Below, piece by piece: positions 6,359 to 50,081 of a stretch of DNA of 50,081 nt. The translations under genes and the position numbers were made by a program. This stretch comes from Candidatus Thiodiazotropha sp. (ex Epidulcina cf. delphinae) (lineage in GTDB: Bacteria > Pseudomonadota > Gammaproteobacteria > Chromatiales > Chromatiaceae): the NCBI GenBank assembly GCA_025656505.1, contig JAHXHR010000007.1, forward strand, positions 1 to 50,081, written 5' to 3'. Within the stretch, counting starts at the first letter, position 1. Every line of letters begins with the position of its first letter. A model generated the notes under the pieces. The model made no database searches. It worked only from the letters and a program-made list of their open reading frames with translations, and was not told where the DNA came from.

Positions 6359-6420
6359 GGGACGAAAGCTCAAGCCTTGAGGTGCTCTGTCATCCAGTGT
6401 CAAGTCTTGGCTGGAGTTAA

Positions 6421-6657
6421 CCTAAAAACCGCAGTTGGGCGGAGTGAAGTGTGCGCTTGCGGGGGTGCAGGGCAAGGCGCAACGACGCGGAATAGTTATG
6501 CTATTCCAAGGCGTTGCAACGTAGCCATGCGCCGCCGCAAGCGTACAATTCACCCCGTAGCGTGATTCACCCGGCAGGTGAATAGGCCAATCGAAGTCAA
6601 TAGCTTGCCTATCAATAGCTTAGTATCAGGATGGAGCGGTCAACTGCGGTTTTTAGG
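6421..6657 (+). mobile_element. Family A element, copy A1 (core-containing, 237 bp)
   Basis: The ends CCTAAAAACCGCAGTTG (left) and the reverse complement of CCTAAAAACCGCAGTTGACC (right) form terminal inverted repeats. A direct repeat GTTAA lies on each side (6416-6420 and 6658-6662). No ORF is evident. The left arm is short. The core at about 6470-6536 holds AATAGTTATGCTATT and GGCGTTGCAACG. The long right arm contains TTCACCCGGCAGGTGAA. The rest of the 6267-6778 gap (6363-6415 and 6663-6778) shows nothing I can name. Confidence 0.85.
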
Positions 6658-6778
6658 GTTAAGTGTTCCTATGGTTGGTATCGGTATTCATTGGTTTAAG
6701 CGCAGTATCCGCCACTTAATAAGGTGCTCATGCAAGGATGCCGTGAACGGCGCTGCCGCTTAGCTTGCGATATGCTCT

Positions 6779-8656
6779 TCAGGCCGAGACTTGTTCGGAG
6801 CGCGTCTGCCGTCCCTGCCGTTCGCTGTGTTCAGGGACCAGTTGGTTGAGTAGTTTTTTCAGTGCTTCGCTGTCGATCGATTCGCATGCCTCGGACATCT
6901 CCTCCAGGATATTCGTCAGCCACTGCCAGTCCACCTGGCGGTGGCGGGCCAGGAAAACCTTCTCGTGGGCGGTTTTTTCAAGTTGCTCCTTTTCGTGGAA
7001 CAACTCCTCATAGAGTTTTTCGCCGGGACGCAGGCCGATGTATTCGATTTGGATATCGGCGCCGGGGGTTCTGCCCGAGAGATGGATCATCTGCTCCGCC
7101 AGATAGCTGATCCTGACCGGCTCCCCCATGTCCAGGACGAAAATTTCGCCGCCCTGGCTCAGGACCACGGTCTGCATGATCAGCTGGCACGCCTCGGAGA
7201 TGGTCATGAAGTAGCGCTCCATGCGCGGGTCCGTCACGGTGACCGGGCCGCCCGCCTCGATCTGTTTGCGAAACAGCGGGATGACGCTGCCGGCGGAATC
7301 CAGCACATTGCCGAAGCGGACGGTAATGAAGTTGGTCTTGGAGTGGGCATTCAGATTCTGACAAAGGATCTCGGCCGCCCGTTTGCTCGCCCCCATCACA
7401 TTGGCCGGGTTCACCGCCTTGTCGGTGGAGACCAGCACGAACACGCCGCAGCCGAAACGGTCGGCCGCCTGCGCCACATTGCGGGTGCCCAGGACATTGT
7501 TGCGCACCGCCTGGCGCAAACGGTTTTCCAGCATCGGCACATGTTTGTAAGCGGCGGCGTGGAACACCACTTGCGGTTGAAATCGGGCAAACAGATTTTC
7601 CACATAGGGCCTGTCGGTGATATCGCCGAGACGGCATTCGAGGGGCAGATCGGGAAACGCCTTGAGCAGCTCCATTTCGATGGAGTAGAGATTGAACTCG
7701 CTGTTCTCCAACAACACCAGGCGGGCAGGTTTCAGTCCGGCCAGTTGGCGGCAGAGTTCGGAGCCGATCGAACCGCCGGCGCCGGTGACCAGGACGGTTT
7801 TGCCGGAGAGCGCCGCGTCGATGGCCTGCCAGTCGAGGGAGACGGGGTTGCGTCCCAACAGGTCTTCGATGGAGACGGAGCGCAGGTGATTGATCTGGAC
7901 ATTGCCCGACATCAGATCATTCAACTGCGGCACGGACCTGAACGGCGCATCGGCCGCTTCGCACAACTCGACAACTCGCCGCATCTGTCTTGAGGAGGCG
8001 GAGGGGATTGCCAACATAATGATATCGATGGCGAGTTTTTCGGTCAGCTCCGGAATGGCTTCGCAGGTGCCGGCCACGGGTAGGCCGTGAATCTCTCGGC
8101 CCTGACGGCGTAACTTGTCATCGACAAAGGCCACCGGCCGGTAGTCGCCTCGGCGGTTGCGCAGGATATCCCGGGCCAGCATCTCGCCGGCCTTGCCTGA
8201 GCCCACGATCAGCACCCGCTGGCTGGGAGAGAGGTCTAGGTTGCGGTCCTTCAACAAGCGGTAGATCAGGCGTGGTCCACTCAGCAGCATCACCAGCAGG
8301 ATCGCGTAGATGATGGGGACCGAGCGTGGAACGCCCCCGGCCCGGGTGAAGACGAACAGCAGCGCCACACTGACCACCGTGCCGACCAGCACCGCCTTGA
8401 GGATGCGCAGGATGTCGGGCAGCGAGGCAAAGCGCCAGATGCCCCGATAGAGGCCGAACAGGAGAAAGGCGGTGAGCTGGATCGGTAGCACGAAGAGCAG
8501 GGCCAGCAGGGCGTCCTGGTAATACGAGGCGGGGAGAACCTCCAGATTGTAGCGAAACCAGAATGCCAGGAACCAGGCGATGGGCACCATCAGCACATCG
8601 TGCCCGAGCGCTACCGCTTGAGAGCGCAAATGGCGAGGTATGAGTTGTCTGCTCAT
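6779..8656 (-). CDS. WbpM/CapD/FlaA1-type nucleotide-sugar 4,6-dehydratase (UDP-GlcNAc dehydratase-like)
   Basis: This 625-residue protein has four N-terminal membrane helices (about 10-120), a first Rossmann-like domain with VLIVGSGKAGEMLARD, and a C-terminal extended SDR domain (about 285-570). Its NAD-binding motif is TGAGGSIGSE. It carries STDKAVNPANVMGASKR, where Met takes the place of the usual SDR Tyr before Lys, as in WbpM and PglF. Enzymes of this family turn UDP-GlcNAc into UDP-4-keto-6-deoxy-GlcNAc at the inner face of the membrane, a precursor of QuiNAc, FucNAc and bacillosamine. It stands alone on the minus strand, divergent from the T2SS operon. A matching reductase and initiating transferase lie at 43085-45136. 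Confidence 0.88.
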   Translation of the reverse strand: MSRQLIPRHLRSQAVALGHDVLMVPIAWFLAFWFRYNLEVLPASYYQDALLALLFVLPIQLTAFLLFGLYRGIWRFASLPDILRILKAVLVGTVVSVALLFVFTRAGGVPRSVPIIYAILLVMLLSGPRLIYRLLKDRNLDLSPSQRVLIVGSGKAGEMLARDILRNRRGDYRPVAFVDDKLRRQGREIHGLPVAGTCEAIPELTEKLAIDIIMLAIPSASSRQMRRVVELCEAADAPFRSVPQLNDLMSGNVQINHLRSVSIEDLLGRNPVSLDWQAIDAALSGKTVLVTGAGGSIGSELCRQLAGLKPARLVLLENSEFNLYSIEMELLKAFPDLPLECRLGDITDRPYVENLFARFQPQVVFHAAAYKHVPMLENRLRQAVRNNVLGTRNVAQAADRFGCGVFVLVSTDKAVNPANVMGASKRAAEILCQNLNAHSKTNFITVRFGNVLDSAGSVIPLFRKQIEAGGPVTVTDPRMERYFMTISEACQLIMQTVVLSQGGEIFVLDMGEPVRISYLAEQMIHLSGRTPGADIQIEYIGLRPGEKLYEELFHEKEQLEKTAHEKVFLARHRQVDWQWLTNILEEMSEACESIDSEALKKLLNQLVPEHSERQGRQTRSEQVSA

Positions 8657-8815
8657 TCAGGCACTCCTGGATCCCAAAGTGTAGCTTGGACAGCCGACGA
8701 TGGGCCATTCTACCCCATTGTGTGAAACTTGTTGTTTCCCTTATTTCGGTTCGTCTCCGTATCGGGTGGGTTATACTGCAGCCCGGCGCCGTCGATGTCG
8801 ATCCGTGAACACTCC

Positions 8816-8982
8816 CTAGGGGGTGTTCTCAATCATCGTTCGCGGCGTGATTCCGGCCCTTTTCCGCGCCGGCGGCGTTGCGATTCGTTGCAATAGAATG
8901 ACTATTGCGCCTCATCGCGCCTTGCCGGCACGAAAAATGACTCAGAATCACGCTCACTCAGCTAATTGAGAACGCCCCCTAG
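8816..8982 (+). mobile_element. Family B element, copy B1 (with CTAG flanks)
   Basis: CTAG flanks (8816-8819 and 8979-8982) enclose inverted ends GGGGTGTTCTCAAT and, on the other side, the reverse complement of GGGGCGTTCTCAAT (13 of 14 positions agree). The first 92 bases including the CTAG are nearly identical to the sequence after leuS (49990-50081). The interior (about 8871-8928) is homologous to the core of family A in opposite orientation. The element occupies the divergent promoter region between the dehydratase gene and gspE. The rest of 8657-9020 shows no clear feature. Confidence 0.8.
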
Positions 8983-9020
8983 TAACCGCATAAAGTGCGT
9001 AGCCAATTGAAGTCAGTCGT

Positions 9021-16529: not shown

Positions 16530-16766
16530 CCTAAAAACCGCAGTTGACCGCTCCATTCTGATACTGAACTATTGATATGCAAGCTATTAACTTCGATTTG
16601 CCTATTCACTGGCCGGGTGAATCACGCTACGGGGCGAATTGCACGCTTGCGGCGGCGCATGGCTGCGTTGCAACGCCTTGGAATAGCATGACTATTCCGC
16701 GTTGCTGCGCCTTGCCGTGTACCCCCGCAAACGCACACTTCACCCTGTCCAACTGTGGTTTTTAGG
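16530..16766 (-). mobile_element. Family A element, copy A3 (core-containing, 237 bp) between gspM and the GspC-like gene
   Basis: The left end is CCTAAAAACCGCAGTTGACC. The right end is the reverse complement of CCTAAAAACCACAGTTGGAC. Perfect flanking repeats ATGAA lie at 16525-16529 and 16767-16771. The element has the same length and layout as A1 but is inserted in the opposite orientation. The core with AATAGCATGACTATT lies at about 16651-16717. No coding capacity is evident. The duplicated ATGAA contains both the TGA of gspM (left) and the ATG of the next gene (right). Confidence 0.88.
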
Positions 16767-33266: not shown

Positions 33267-33555
33267 CCCAAAAACCGCAGTTGACCGCTTCATTCTGATA
33301 CTGAACTATTGATAGGCAAACGATTGACTTCGATTTGCCTATTCACCGGTTGGGTGAATCAGGTTACGGGGTAAAGTGTGCGCTTGCTGGGGTGCGGGGC
33401 AAGGGTTGCTCCTGCACATCCCTGTGCTTGCGACACTTGTGCATCCCTGCACGGCGCGCAACAACGCGGAATCGTCATGCTATTCCAAGGCGTTGCAACG
33501 CAGCCATGCGCCGCCGCAAGCGTGCCATTCGCCCCGTCCAACTGCGGTTTTTAGG
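33267..33555 (-). mobile_element. Family A element, copy A4 (core inverted, 289 bp)
   Basis: The ends CCCAAAAACCGCAGTTGACC and the reverse complement of CCTAAAAACCGCAGTTGGAC are flanked by perfect repeats TTGAA (33262-33266 and 33556-33560). The long arm lies on the left as in A3, but the central segment (about 33372-33530) reads in the orientation of A1. The core is therefore inverted relative to the arms. About 50 extra bases (about 33404-33453) interrupt the core and contain GCACATCCCTGTGC and GTGCATCCCTGCAC, two hairpins with a TCCC loop. The rest of 33248-33629 shows nothing else. Confidence 0.85.
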
Positions 33556-36545: not shown

Positions 36546-36682
36546 CCTGAAAACCGTAGTTGGATGGGGCGCAATTCGCCCCGTGGCGTGTTCACCCGGC
36601 CGGTGAATAGGTAAATCGAAGTCAATGATTTGCCTATCAGTAGGTTAGTATCGGAATGGAGCGGTTAACTGCGGTTTTTAGG
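36546..36682 (+). mobile_element. Family A element, copy A5 (core-less, 137 bp)
   Basis: The ends CCTGAAAACCGTAGTTGG and the reverse complement of CCTAAAAACCGCAGTTAACC are flanked by perfect repeats TTCAT (36541-36545 and 36683-36687). The long arm lies on the right, as in A1. Where A1 has the core, A5 has only GGGGCGCAATTCGCCCC, a small palindrome. It lies about 40 bases upstream of the parvulin start. Confidence 0.85.
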
Positions 36683-41114: not shown

Positions 41115-41930
41115 ATGAAATTGGTTATCTCTATTGTCTACTATGATAGCGGTCTACCCACGCTGGAAGATACGCTGAAGAGTATTGTGGCGGCCCTTGA
41201 CCATGCCGTTGATAATACCAATGACCTCAGCGCCAAGGTCGTCGTCGTCGATAACGGCGGCATTCTCAACCGGGTGAAGGGGCTGGCGTCACAGGTCGTC
41301 GGCGCGAGCCGGCATGGCTGGATGGTGCTTGGGACCGGGGGCAATATCGGTTACGGCGCCGCGCATAATCTGGTGATCCTGAATGAACCGAGCGATTACC
41401 ACTTGGTGATCAATCCCGATGTGGAGGTGCTTGAAGATGCCTTCACCAAGGCGATCGACTATATGCAGCAGCACTCGGACGTCGGTTTGCTGTCGCCCTA
41501 TTCGGAAGACCCTGAAGGCTTTAAGCTCTATCTCTGTAAGCGCTATCCCGCCGTGTTGGACCTGTTCCTTCGCGGTTTCGCGCCACGGTTTGTCAAGCAT
41601 TTTTTTTCAGCACGGCTGCAGGAATACGAAATGCGCTGTGAACTGGAGCATCAGGCGCTCAGCAAGGAGGTCATGGCGAGCGGCTGTTTCATGTTCGTGC
41701 GGCATAGCGTTTTGGATACAGTGAGAGGCTTTTCACCCGATTTCTTTGTCTATTTCGAGGATTTCGATCTCTCCATCAGGATCGCCAAGCGCTCGATAAT
41801 CGCCTATGTGCCTGAAGTGCGTATCGTACATGGGGGGGGGAACGCCTCGAAAAAAGGGCTCAAACACATCATCATGTTCGCCAAGTCGGCCTTCGTGTTT
41901 TATCACAAACACGGTTGGCGCTGGGCTTGA
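41115..41930 (+). CDS. Family 2 glycosyltransferase (rhamnosyltransferase-like)
   Basis: This 271-residue protein is read from ATG 41115; an in-frame ATG at 41076 is possible but less suited. The GT-A fold starts MKLVISIVYYDSGLPTLEDT, with VVVVDNGG, GTGGNIGYGAAHNL and the DXD-like VINPDVEV. Further motifs GCFMFVRHSVLDTVRGFSPD and FFVYFEDFDLSIRIAKR match WbbL/RfbN-like rhamnosyltransferases. It would add a sugar from a nucleotide donor on the cytoplasmic side. It lies in the polysaccharide block. The remnant of a family C element starts at its stop codon. Confidence 0.85.
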   Translation: MKLVISIVYYDSGLPTLEDTLKSIVAALDHAVDNTNDLSAKVVVVDNGGILNRVKGLASQVVGASRHGWMVLGTGGNIGYGAAHNLVILNEPSDYHLVINPDVEVLEDAFTKAIDYMQQHSDVGLLSPYSEDPEGFKLYLCKRYPAVLDLFLRGFAPRFVKHFFSARLQEYEMRCELEHQALSKEVMASGCFMFVRHSVLDTVRGFSPDFFVYFEDFDLSIRIAKRSIIAYVPEVRIVHGGGNASKKGLKHIIMFAKSAFVFYHKHGWRWA

Positions 41931-41960
41931 AAATTCAAATCCTGGTGAGAAATGCGGGCT
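41930..41960 (+). repeat. Solo right end of a family C element (C3) carrying an RBS and start codon
   Basis: TCCTGGTGAGAAATGCGGG, followed by CTAG, matches the right end of C1 (TCCTGGTGAGAAATGCGGGC). Upstream bases AAATTCAAA also match. GGTGAG and ATG (41952) give a start signal for the GT4 gene. The left part of the element is missing. Confidence 0.7.
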
Positions 41961-44053: not shown

Positions 44054-45136
44054 TTGTTTTGGGTGACGGCGCTGGTTTTCTTATTCTCGGCGGCCTTGAC
44101 CGGCGTGGCGCGCGCCTATGCCCTTCGCCGGGGCTTGATGGATCGGCCCAACAGTCGCAGCGCCCACACGATTGCAACCCCTCGCGGTGGCGGTGTGGCG
44201 TTTGTCCTCGTCTACCTGTCTGCGCTGATAGGGTCATTTTTCTTTCCCCTTGACGGGGTGCGCCTTGCTGAGGAGTTTCTTGTCGCATTGCTGTTCGGCG
44301 GTGGGCTGGTCGCGTTGATCGGTTTTATCGATGATCATCGGCATCTCCCGGCCAGACTGCGATTTCCGGTTCATGTGGCGGCGGCGGTGGTTGCGGTTTG
44401 GGTCTTGGGTGTGCCGCCGATCACTATCGCAACCTGGATAGCAACCGATGGCTGGTGGTTGAGGGTGCTGTTTGTGGTCGCCCTGGCATGGCTATTGAAT
44501 CTCTATAATTTCATGGACGGCATCGACGGCATCGCCGGCCTGCAGGCGATTGCCGTTCTTTGCGAGGGCGCGGCCATCCTGATGCTGAACCAATCCGCTC
44601 TTGAGGCGGCGTACTGGCTGTTGCTGCCGGCGTCGGCGGTAGCCGGCTTTCTGCTTTGGAACTGGCCGCCGGCGAAGATTTTCATGGGTGATGCGGCGAG
44701 CGGCTTCATAGGCTTTTCCCTGGGGGTTTTCGCGCTTTACACAGCGAACCATTACCCCATTTCGATCTGGAGTTGGCTGATACTGCTCGGGGTATTCGCG
44801 GTGGATGCAACCTGGACCCTGGGGGTGAGAGTGTTGAGGGGAGAACGATGGTATGAAGCGCATGCCGACCATGCCTATCAGATCTTAGCGCGACGCCGTC
44901 AGGCCCTCAACGACGATGCCGGTATGCCCATCGAGCAAGCCCGGGCGGAAGCGCATAAATGGGTCGTTCTGAGGATGCTTCTGATCAACCTTTTCTGGCT
45001 GTTGCCGTTGGCATGGCTGGCGTCCGTCGCGCCTTCCTACGGATGGCTCTTGACGCTTATCGCATTTCTACCGTTGTCGCTACTGGCTTGGCGGCTAGCC
45101 CGCATTTCTCACCAGACGGACCGGAAGAACGGATAA
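44054..45136 (+). CDS. WecA/WbpL-family undecaprenyl-phosphate sugar-1-phosphate transferase
   Basis: This 360-residue protein has about ten membrane helices. The family motifs are present: LMDRPNSRSAHTIATPRGGG, GFIDDHRHLPARLR, LYNFMDGIDGIAGLQAIA, KIFMGDAASGF, and the C-terminal HADHAYQILARRRQ, the HAHH-type box. The enzyme starts glycan synthesis by linking a sugar phosphate to undecaprenyl phosphate. Its small size and motifs suit WbpL, which uses UDP-QuiNAc/FucNAc. The start is TTG 44054 with AGGGAG upstream. The last residues (RISHQTDRKNG) and stop come from the left end of element C1, so the native tail has been replaced or extended. Confidence 0.88.
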   Translation: MFWVTALVFLFSAALTGVARAYALRRGLMDRPNSRSAHTIATPRGGGVAFVLVYLSALIGSFFFPLDGVRLAEEFLVALLFGGGLVALIGFIDDHRHLPARLRFPVHVAAAVVAVWVLGVPPITIATWIATDGWWLRVLFVVALAWLLNLYNFMDGIDGIAGLQAIAVLCEGAAILMLNQSALEAAYWLLLPASAVAGFLLWNWPPAKIFMGDAASGFIGFSLGVFALYTANHYPISIWSWLILLGVFAVDATWTLGVRVLRGERWYEAHADHAYQILARRRQALNDDAGMPIEQARAEAHKWVVLRMLLINLFWLLPLAWLASVAPSYGWLLTLIAFLPLSLLAWRLARISHQTDRKNG

Positions 45137-45369
45137 CATGATGAAATTTAACCGACTTAGCATCGAAAAATGATGGTAGTACATTTACACCCTGTCCTAT
45201 TTGGTTTTTGGAGCAATCCGGCTTCGCACCCCAAGGGCACTTCCTGCGGGGCGCATCTTGAACGATTAGCCTTGAACCATGGTGATGGCTATGCTCCGGC
45301 GGCTAATCGTCCAACCTTCTTCGCCGGTTTACCTCAAAAATCCAAATCCTGGTGAGAAATGCGGGCTGG
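45095..45369 (+). mobile_element. Family C element, copy C1
   Basis: The left end is CTAG followed by CCCGCATTTCTCACCAGACG. The right end is the reverse complement of CCCGCATTTCTCACCAGGAT, with CTGG beyond it. The 17-base inverted ends enclose an interior with ACGATTAGCC and GGCTAATCGT, which pair to form a stem. The element covers the end of the WbpL-like gene. Bases 45370-45425 show nothing else apart from a weak likeness to a family A end. Confidence 0.8.
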
Positions 45370-46902: not shown

Positions 46903-46939
46903 CCTGTCCGTCACGCCGGGCCTCCCTGCGGGAGAGATG

Positions 46940-47189
46940 CTAACCCGCATTGCTCACCAGACGGACCGTACTAACAGGAAAACTTATGAAAGTTGAACAG
47001 GTTAGTATCTCTCACCGTATGGCATTCATCGGACAATCTGTCCTATTTGGTTTTTGGAACAACCAGGCCGAGCCTCTTGAATGATCGGGCTTGAACCATA
47101 GGCCCGGCTATGCTTCTGCGCCCGATCATCCAACCTGCTTCGGCCTGGTTGCACCAAAAATCCAAATCTTGGTGAGAAATGCGGGCTAA
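46940..47189 (+). mobile_element. Family C element, copy C2
   Basis: The left end is CTAA followed by CCCGCATTGCTCACCAGACG. The right end is the reverse complement of CCCGCATTTCTCACCAAGAT, followed by CTAA (47186-47189). A perfect 4-bp duplication CTAA therefore flanks it. The interior pairs CAACCAGGCCGA with TCGGCCTGGTTG, and ATGATCGGGC with GCCCGATCAT. It lies between the globin and leuS. The remaining bases before leuS (47190-47335) show no other feature. Confidence 0.85.
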
Positions 47190-47335: not shown

Positions 47336-49993
47336 ATGCAGAATCTCTACGACCCTGCCGTCATCGAGGCAGAGGTCCAGTCACACTGGGAACATGCCAA
47401 GACCTTCGAGGTCAGCGAAAACTCGCGCAAGGAGAAGTTTTACTGCCTCTCCATGTTTCCCTACCCCAGCGGCAAGCTGCATATGGGGCATGTGCGCAAC
47501 TACACCATCGGCGATGTGATCGCCCGTTACCAGCGCATGCTCGGCAAGAATGTGCTCCAGCCCATGGGATGGGATGCCTTCGGCCTGCCGGCGGAGAATG
47601 CCGCCCTCAAGAACAAGGTGGCCCCGGCCGGATGGACTTATGACAACATTGCCTATATGAAAGGGCAGCTCAACCGGCTTGGTTTCGGCTATGACTGGCG
47701 GCGCGAGCTGGCCACCTGCCGGCCCGACTATTACAAGTGGGAGCAGTGGCTGTTCATCGAGCTTTATAAGAAAGGCTTGGTTTATCGTAAAAATGCGCTG
47801 GTCAATTGGGATCCGGTCGACCGGACGGTGCTGGCCAATGAGCAGGTCATCGATGGCCGTGGCTGGCGCTCTGGCGCCTTGGTGGAGCGCCGCGAGATTC
47901 CCCAATGGTTCGTCAAGATCACCGACTATGCCGATGAGTTGCTTGACGAAATCGATAACCTGGAGGGCTGGCCCGAGCAGGTGCGCGCCATGCAGCGCAA
48001 CTGGATCGGTCGCTCATTCGGTGTGCGGATGAGGTTCGGGATCGAGGGTTCGGATGAGACCCTGTCCATCTACACCACTCGCCCCGATACGCTGATGGGG
48101 GTCACCTATGTCGCGGTGGCGGGGGAACACCCGTTGGCCCTGGGGGCCGCTGTCGGCAATCCCGCGCTGACCGAGTTCATCGAAGCGTGCCGCCGGGGGG
48201 GGATGTCGGAAGCGGAACTGGAGACCATCGAGAAGAAGGGCATGCCCCTGGGCATCAATGCCGTCCACCCGGTGAGCGGTGAGGCGGTGCCGGTCTATGC
48301 GGCCAACTTCGTGCTGACGGGTTACGGCACCGGCGCGGTGATGGCCGTCCCCGGCCATGATGAACGGGATCATGCATTCGCCAGGCAGTATGGTATCCCG
48401 ATCAAACAGGTGATCCATCCGCGGGACGGCTCTCATGTGGATATCCAACACGCCGCCTATACCGAGAAAGGTGTGTTGCAGGCGTCCGGTCCGTTCGACG
48501 GTCTCACATCCGAGGCCGCTTTCGACGCCATTGCCGAGTGGTTGCAGGCGCGCGGCAAGGGCGAGAAAACCAAACAGTATCGTATACGCGACTGGGGGGT
48601 TTCGCGCCAGCGCTACTGGGGGGCGCCGATCCCGATGATTCACTGTGAGAAGTGCGGTCTCGTGCCGGTCCCGCCGGCGGATCTGCCGGTGCGTCTCCCG
48701 GAGGATATCGTCTACGACGAACACACCATCAATCCGCTCAAGGACAACCCCGCCTTTGCTGACTGTCGTTGTCCCCAGTGTGGCGATGTGGCGCAACGGG
48801 AGACCGACACCTTCGACACCTTTATGGAGTCGAGCTGGTACTACGCCCGCTATACCTGTCCGGGCGCCGGCGCCATGCTCGATGAGCGCGCCGACTACTG
48901 GCTGCCGGTGGACCACTACATCGGCGGCATCGAGCATGCGGTGCTGCATCTGCTCTATGCCCGCTTCTACCACAAACTGCTGCGCGATGCGGGACTGGTG
49001 AAGAGCGACGAGCCGTTCACCCGTCTGCTGACCCAGGGGATGGTGGTGGCCGAAACCTACTACCGGGAACAGGGTGACGGCGCCAAACACTGGCATAATC
49101 CGACCGAAGTCGAGGTGGAGCGTGATGAGAAGGGCCGGCCGCTATCGGCCCGGCTGCCGGCGGATGGCGGGGCGGTGGTGATCGGCGGTATCGAGAAGAT
49201 GTCGAAGTCGAAAAACAACGGCGTCGATCCGCAGGGCCTGATCGATCGCTACGGCGCCGATACGGTGAGGCTCTACACCATGTTCACCTCACCGCCGGAC
49301 CAGTCCCTGGAGTGGAATGATGAGGGGGTGGAGGGAGCCCATCGGTTTCTAAAAAGGTTGTGGTTATTTGCAGCTGAGAAAGCTGAAATAATCAAGGCTG
49401 TTAACGCTTCATGTCATTTGGCCAAGAATAGGCTTGAGCCTGATTGGAGTAATTTGATTGATGAGCAAAGGGAAGCGCGCAGAGAAATGCATAGCGTACT
49501 GAGGCAAGCGCTCTTTGATTACGACCGGCAACATTTTAATACGGTTGTCGCCGCTTGTATGAAAATACTGAATCTTACAATTAGGCTACCCGGGGTGACT
49601 CCCTATCATCCTAACGCAGAGAGCAAAGCACCAAACTTGCGTGTGTGGATGTGGATGGTACATGAGTCTATGGGGTTCATACTGCGGCTGTTGGGTCCCA
49701 TCGCCCCCCATATTACGCATCTGCTGTGGCGCGAGCTGGCGTATGGCAGTGAGATCCTTGAGAGCGATTGGCCGCAACCCGACGAAGCCGCCCTCAAACA
49801 GGAGAGCCTGTCCTATGTGGTGCAGGTCAACGGCAAGGTGCGGGCAACCATCCAGGCGCCGGCGGATACCGACAAATCGGTGGTTGAGCGTATCGCCCTG
49901 GAGAATGACAAAGTGCAGCGCTTTATCGGTGAAGGGAGGGTGAGGAAGGTGATTGTGGTGCCGAACAAACTGGTGAATGTCGTTGCTAACTAG
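47336..49993 (+). CDS. leuS: Leucyl-tRNA synthetase
   Basis: This 885-residue class I enzyme charges tRNA-Leu. The start ATG 47336 gives [20 protein letters not shown], as expected. HMGH is at 49-52 ([19 protein letters not shown]). The editing CP1 domain has [35 protein letters not shown]. The KMSKS loop is [13 protein letters not shown] (621-625). The anticodon-binding domain follows. Residues about 670-787 (49345-49695) are encoded by visibly AT-richer, differently used codons than the rest, though the reading frame is intact. The stop TAG (49991-49993) is the start of element B2. Confidence 0.97.
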
Positions 49994-50081
49994 GGGGTGT
50001 TCTCAATCATCGTTCGCGGCGTGATTCCGGCCCTTTTCCGCGTTGGCGGCGTTGCGATTCGTTGCAATAGAATGACTATTA
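49990..50081 (+). mobile_element. Family B element, copy B2 (partial, runs off the window)
   Basis: CTAG followed by GGGGTGTTCTCAAT begins at 49990. The next bases match B1 (8816 onward) almost exactly up to the window end (the first 92 bases show about three differences, near 50041 and at the end). The CTAG includes the leuS stop codon. The right end lies outside the window. Confidence 0.85.

Follow-up and report, generated by a model that had tools for sequence, protein, structure and literature searches.

Bacterial MITEs are usually sorted by their ends and taken as deletion relics of single IS families. The 2007 review of these elements covers Correia, ERIC, RUP, RPE, CIR, YPAL and RU-3 (PMC2229807) and, in the parts on which we draw, presents NEMIS transcripts as proposed substrates of RNase III and ERIC (also called IRU or RU-1), a 127-bp repeat of enterobacteria with TA at its ends, as acting on mRNA in an orientation-dependent manner. 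Those parts, and the parts of PMC10969869 and PMC4853749 used here, make no mention of a core common to these MITEs, and a limited literature search found no report of one; absence from print is not claimed. Here we show that two element families of a Candidatus Thiodiazotropha genome, A and B, are members of a large group of palindromic, non-autonomous elements, usually 155–165 bp in length, that are built round one conserved stem-loop.

The window, that is, the whole stretch of 50,081 nucleotides that was analysed, belongs to a genome of 3.43 Mb in 159 contigs (the own genome). Its A and B elements are MITEs, being short and multicopy, with terminal inverted repeats and a target duplication and without a transposase gene; no ORF of 100 codons lies inside the first copies, A1 and B1. 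Scores in the following list refer to R1, a covariance model built from 32 cores:

6421–6657, plus strand: element A1, 237 bp, ends CCTAAAAACCGCAGTTG; target duplication GTTAA at 6416–6420 and 6658–6662
6457–6540, plus strand: hairpin core of A1, 84 nt, CAAGGCG..AATAGT..CTATT..TTGCAACG; 78.4 bits
6559–6657, plus strand: right extension of A1, beyond the hairpin; exact match to WATCAANNNNTTR at 6610–6622
8819–8979, minus strand: element B1, 161 bp, ends GGGGGYGTTCTCAATTA; TA duplication at 8817–8818 and 8980–8981, in CTAG context
8857–8940, minus strand: hairpin core of B1; 85.7 bits
10762–10907, plus strand: A-type copy without core, diverged ends CCTAGAATCCTCAG
16530–16766, minus strand: A copy, core at 16647–16730 (minus strand); 69.3 bits
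33267–33555, no strand assigned: A copy, its 5′ arm lengthened by a 51-bp insert, with TTGAA on either side and its core (33439–33519, plus strand) inverted relative to its own element ends; 47.1 bits
36546–36682, plus strand: A copy without core, TTCAT on either side
49993–50081, minus strand: B copy ending inside the core at the contig end; core match at 50031–50081, 40.9 bits

All R1 matches in the window fall in A and B copies. The core-less copy at 36546–36682 and the inverted-core copy at 33267–33555 show that the core module can be lost or flipped within A, and the existence of core-less copies with flanking direct repeats means that an element does not strictly require its core in order to reside in the genome, with deletion after insertion as a possible alternative account of such copies.

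The initial annotation had reported that the A1 core and the reverse complement of the B1 core align over some 55 bases. This similarity persists in a proper local alignment of A1 (6420–6658) with the reverse complement of B1 (8816–8983), which gives one ungapped 51-bp block, 39/51 identical (6471–6521 and 8876–8926), with a score of 47 against a mean of 18.2 (sd 2.3, maximum 33) in 2000 dinucleotide shuffles of B, the better of the two strands being taken for each shuffle. The cores are therefore homologous, and the letters and coordinates given for them were right, but the homologous unit is bigger than the annotated stretch and comprises the entire 84-nt bulged hairpin (6457–6540, plus strand; 8857–8940, minus strand). 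The target sizes had been given as 5 bp for A and CTAG for B; the former stands (5 bp in 40/65 end pairs, none in 19 and two in 6), whereas B duplicates exactly TA, in CTAG context, in 45 of 52 end pairs (none in 7) and not the 4-bp CTAG. Throughout the own genome, AATAGTNATNCTATT occurs with at most one mismatch at 154 sites, compared with 7 for the reversed control, and 73 matches to A and 51 to B were obtained at E ≤ 0.001, the best 40 candidates of each family being scored. Among the matches listed, full B copies are 98–100% identical to B1 and full-length A copies 78–100% identical to A1.

The core is not confined to these two families. A pattern scan of public genomes yielded at least 70 core loci, in whose flanks the same core is joined to quite different ends (CCTAGAATCCGCAGTTG, GGGGGCGTTCTCAATTA, GTGTGGTGTTGCATGC, GGGCGTAGACCTATAAACC, TATACCCAACGGATTTG, GGGCACCTCTATTAATTC and others), and further carriers were found among plasmid matches to the core. 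The scan records are mostly Gamma-, Beta- and Alphaproteobacteria; one Saprospiraceae-titled MAG and two Polarisedimenticolaceae-titled records may be misbinned. In the window's class R1 matches 141 of 369 genomes and in its phylum 107 of 398 (overlapping sets, both including the own genome), as well as 8 of 296 genomes of another phylum, that of G770, which is itself one of the eight and was picked for having matches. Weak matches in this other phylum (G937, at most 31 bits) may be due to chance, and copy numbers from R1 are lower bounds because at most 11–15 candidates were scored per genome. A simple score cut on the 52-nt outer arms sorts the carriers into 35 groups, some with related ends (C and C2; D and M), and between groups the outer arms fall below the cut for alignment while the core remains alignable. 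Thus, the sharing of a core by A1 and B1 is confirmed as real and general, and it reaches wider than the initial annotation had proposed. Rfam gave no match at gathering score for 20 sources, and in the window at 6400–9000 four sub-threshold matches, one of which (8783–8880; 22.7 bits, cut-off 75) extends into B1; the whole of A1 had no match in the phage and plasmid collections.

The core is a bulged hairpin of ~84 nt placed in the middle of MITEs of ~160 bp. In typical carriers of 155–165 bp it lies 34–41 bp from either end, and this length was found in 45 of the 50 non-A rows with both ends among those listed (the others measure 134, 181, 250, 261 and 261 bp; 9 rows were left out of the length and centring analysis). 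A right extension is present in the long forms, namely A (236–237 bp) and the long D and M (250–263 bp). Two IHF-like sites lie in the right extension of A. The outer stem of the hairpin is followed inwards by the internal loop AAG/N and a short helix of GCG/CGC; next come the bulge CAA on the 3′ side, a variable helix, a loop rich in purines and finally the apical stem (A/G/C)ATAG/CTAT(T/C/G). The conserved unpaired features are AAG on the 5′ side, CAA on the 3′ side and the purine loop below the apical stem. Loop counts, from which the last 12 of 114 rows of alignment A3 and the last 5 of 42 of A4 were left out as weakest or reverse-strand, gave AGGC(A/G) in the 5′ arm of 61 of 68 non-redundant cores and CAACGC in the 3′ arm of 53 of 68, part of the latter letters being set by the pattern scan. 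AATAGT, CTATT and parts of the 3′ arm were prescribed by the scan pattern, so in 23 of the 32 rows of alignment A2 the invariance of these letters follows from the way the rows were selected.

The stems covary. In the 32 core sequences 88.3% of cells are paired, compared with 70.0% in shuffles and at most 43.0% in slid alignments, and double-change cells number 161 against 59.4 ± 5.9 in shuffles (0 of 500 shuffles as high); counting the pairs that show at least one double change separates the two less clearly (16 against 13.6, 13 of 500). The apical stem itself alternates between AATAG/CTATT, GATAG/CTATC and CATAG/CTATG. We regard common ancestry and a conserved structure of the core as practically certain. 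Template-switch correction of quasi-palindromes, it should be noted, would yield double changes without selection, and the core might then be the inherited relic of one ancient MITE that diversified. Such correction should also have wiped out the AAG and CAA bulges, yet both persist across carriers, and the outer arms have become unalignable between groups while the core has not, so we consider this origin improbable. Least probable of all, in our view, is a site bound as double-stranded DNA, by IHF for instance, where bending would bring the two ends of the element together. A short element must indeed bend to pair its own ends; the IHF site WATCAANNNNTTR, searched for with up to one mismatch, is absent from the A1 and B1 cores, and stem letters vary while pairing is kept. 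In the relevant parts of PMC2229807, 155-bp Correia elements bind IHF in vitro and the IHF site is reported only for that form.

A role as double-stranded DNA would lead one to expect equal numbers of G.T and A.C mismatches in the stems, because each becomes the other on the opposite strand. The modelled stems hold G.T and A.C at 109:23 and 60:15 (49 and 33 non-redundant rows; two pairs supply 48 and 25 of these G.T, respectively), and the outer arms beyond the model at 109:21 (56 rows). With one row per outer-arm group the ratio is 66:11, with 20 groups leaning to G.T, 4 to A.C and 11 ties among the 35. All these counts leave out the last 12 of the 114 rows of A3 and the last 5 of the 42 of A4, taken as weakest or reverse-strand, of which at least L107 and L130 look genuine. 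Mutation since insertion is reflected by the sister copies within the own genome, which gave G.T:A.C at 9:10 distinct sites in A (13 copies; 15:14 cells) and 2:1 in B (30 copies; 6:14 cells), and the contrast between 66:11 among carriers and 11:11 sites among sister copies has a Fisher p of 0.001. These 13 A and 30 B copies replaced a first neutral control of 34 A copies, which leaned slightly to G.T (70:54 cells, 25:16 sites, p 0.18) and whose consensus still included the 51-bp insert and folded poorly. Mutation thus looks even-handed, and the excess between carriers points towards selection acting on the fold. Among the roles that the initial annotation had offered for the core, which include a protein site and a hairpin RNA, a double-stranded DNA site fits worse, as it leaves the strand asymmetry unexplained, and a folded single strand fits better; the relic origin, too, predicts no excess of G.T over A.C. 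Judged from sequence variation, it is very probable that the fold of the plus strand (the strand reading CAAGGCG...TTGCAACG) is under selection.

The tolerance of G.T suggests RNA, short of proof. G.T is milder than A.C in DNA too, so single-stranded DNA is compatible with the excess. The hairpin could accordingly form in single-stranded DNA, either of the donor or incoming, and be bound there by a HUH-type protein or one of replication or repair, since the asymmetry suits any single-strand fold, and the pairs of cores standing head to head ~20 bp apart in L107, L223, L237, L244, L247 and L250 recall the layout of REPINs. REP/REPIN are likewise hairpins, but the carriers described here have terminal inverted repeats and target duplications, as in DDE elements, and no GTAG head was noticed in them by eye, unlike the GTAG-headed sequences listed in the REP table of PMC2817692, in the part consulted. 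Local GC skew showed no bias with respect to copy orientation (53:55, a weak test), which speaks weakly against a lagging-strand role. Taken together, we think single-stranded DNA rather unlikely as the selected form, and on the pattern of mismatches somewhat favour RNA over it. Nor was there any bias of orientation against genes, counted as simple ORFs of at least 110 codons: 47 against 56 copies upstream and 51 against 45 downstream for 135 copies of other genomes, 8:12 and 9:11 for 27 A copies and 15:9 and 9:14 for 30 B copies of the own genome (orientation and GC-skew tests omitted the last 12 of 114 rows of A3 and 5 of 42 of A4). This speaks against a cis effect on neighbouring host mRNA.

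The ends behave differently from the core. TA duplications, a feature of IS630 and of its MITEs such as RUP, are found not only in B but also in C (8/8 end pairs), C2 (11/12, overlapping those of C) and D (5/8), whereas A duplicates 5 bp and F (2/3) and G (4/9, two of the four being one copy) duplicate 4 bp. Separate duplication classes imply more than one type of transposase, or three if the thin 4-bp class holds. IS630 is the only type observed with carrier ends: genome G728 holds a 1.19-kb element, the one autonomous element found, whose ends agree with those of the 165-bp C2 MITE of the same genome for 18 letters counting the TA, and whose open gene encodes a 365-aa IS630 transposase (NF033545 at 284.9 bits, cut-off 100; PF13358). 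The core was not found in this element. With ends shared and core absent, the ends look like recognition sites for a resident transposase, which, along with the many other ends, agrees with the earlier suggestion that the ends are carriers and the core the conserved part.

No B-ended pair of IS size was noticed among the first listed places of the 165 end matches in the own genome. The IS1380 family is characterised by a 5-bp duplication and a CCT start, both of which A shares, but no intact element with A ends was found in the own genome or at the PF13701 loci of 39 relatives. As a partner of A, IS1380 was represented in the own genome by only one truncated PF13701 gene, which adjoins an A right end, and none of the 9 PF13701 loci in relatives (5 of the 39 had matches) carried an A-type end. 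PF01609 was rejected as the C-type partner, the match lying next to the actual partner, which is an IS630. End-only blastn with the D and C ends gave no match in plasmids, and the Cupriavidus-type end was found on one further element, in Diaphorobacter.

Could the core be a passenger that hops between carriers, as the initial annotation had considered? On a tree of 97 cores (85 columns with little resolution; 4 rows left out, rows with one recognised end taken in), the end types, set by hand with both ends of one type in 73 of 143 rows and none in 34, change 19 times, against a least possible 16 and a shuffled mean of 62.9. So few changes mean that cores and ends mostly travel together. Three loci with A-type ends, L214, L219 and L224, are placed apart from the main A clade (28 rows). 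They are the best candidates for a swap, their cores being nearer to B; for L214 and L219 the means are 0.831 and 0.819 to B, against 0.685 and 0.656 to A elements with both ends. A single A clade is nevertheless not rejected (AU p 0.722). Repeated movement of the core by recombination, the core itself being the selfish unit, would account for L214 and L219 and for the 35 outer-arm groups, but the near-monophyly of end types and the single A clade make it unlikely. The better fit, compared with frequent hopping, is long descent of an old lineage of elements in which the ends diverged or were occasionally replaced. The same near-monophyly would suit the relic origin.

Comparison with Correia (CREE/NEMIS, of Neisseria) and ERIC may extend the group. 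A repeat on a viral contig (L285), which we take to be Correia from its end and whose host is presumably Neisseria, matches R1 at 23.8 bits (E 5.7e-7 in 451 bases, R1 E-values being rough; next match 3.5 bits). CAAGGCG...CAACGC(C/T)G occurs in 4 of 5 Correia-type loci, which represent two sites, each in two related contigs; the fifth locus has only 3 nt between the halves. Correia elements are likewise short palindromic MITEs with TA ends and carry this signature in the same register, but they measure ~105 bp instead of ~160, with other ends and a shorter apical stem. Their size variants arise through an internal block of ~50 bp, according to the part of PMC2229807 used here, as in family A. 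Two E. coli ERIC copies each give the best R1 match of their locus, placed exactly on the repeat through its two loop halves, albeit a weak one (10.0 and 7.3 bits), and as an unrelated hairpin in one of these loci scores 8.2 bits, the case for ERIC rests on shared letters: AAGGCG...CAACGCA is present in both loci, one copy reading GAAGGCG and CAACGCAT, and by chance 86 of 200000 random 140-mers with the composition of ERIC contain the signature. ERIC has these letters in common with the carriers described here, and TA at its ends, whereas its inner part is unrelated (60 nt compared with 37 here). The core is common to many differently-ended elements across Proteobacteria, Correia and ERIC apparently among them.

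The explanation we prefer overall, at a probability of roughly 0.55, is that the ends match a resident transposase, the core is selected as a folded plus strand, and a host factor recognises its loops. The ends would then be recognition sites for whichever transposase is resident, with the core conserved independently of them; the plus strand would fold as a single strand, most likely as a transcript, and its conserved loops would be the target of a host RNA-binding or processing factor that is itself conserved widely; this may help the copies to persist or multiply. More tentatively, and against the odds as we judge them, Correia and ERIC might form one superfamily with dozens, probably hundreds, of unnamed MITE families of Proteobacteria, defined by a strand-specific folded core rather than by the ends. 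Through a universal host factor bound by this core, such elements might parasitise unrelated transposases (IS630, a 4-bp class and a 5-bp class) by changing only ~20 terminal bases. A core common to several end types and duplication classes means that the inside of these elements is the constant part and has a job. Correia, ERIC and dozens of unnamed families would join under one testable model; the covariance model of the core can be used for finding more families, and the binder of AAG and CAA becomes a direct biochemical question.

In the own genome, about half of the 40 A places scored with the A1 query carry a 51-bp insert that interrupts them at query position 58; it reads GGTCGCTCC...CACGGCGC and sits in the 5′ arm, adjoining CAAG. 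Besides one copy in the window, the insert was found in further A copies at loci L015, L016, L019-L022, L024 and L027-L030, and it recalls the 50-bp block by which Correia 107 and 155 differ. An A copy in L019 has beside it letters resembling a separate dispersed repeat (AAATCCTGGTGAGAAATGCGGGCT and CCCGCATTTCTCACCAG) that lies near genes in the window. The window features are:

6595-6622, two IHF-like sites in the right extension of A, one of them exact (TATCAATAGCTTA)
33267-33555, A copy with its core oriented opposite to its own ends
33404-33456, 51-bp insert in an A copy
41916-41960, AAATCCTGGTGAGAAATGCGGGCT/CCCGCATTTCTCACCAG repeat
45094-45222, the same repeat
45323-45367, the same repeat
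46939-47068, the same repeat
47143-47187, the same repeat
49993-50081, B copy at the contig edge

The flipped core at 33267-33555 is the outcome expected of recombination between the inverted arms of that copy. Near matches to the IHF-like sites were present in other A copies of the window. Two cores stand head to head, about 20 bp apart, at six loci (L223, L237, L244, L247, L250 and L107), a layout similar to that of REPINs, with CCGAAGGG or its complement between them in three (L237, L244 and L250). By eye, a second core, decayed and oppositely oriented, seems to lie in the right extension of the long Rhodobacterales forms (L188-L190, L098 and L102).

Single B ends lie about 85 bases from the edge at the starts of contigs C1, C11, C25, C42, C43, C48 and C72; there, as at 49993-50081, contigs seem to terminate inside B copies, and the real number of B copies is therefore probably higher than observed. 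Furthermore, inserted B copies interrupt A copies at L167, L173 and L179, consistent with B being younger than A.
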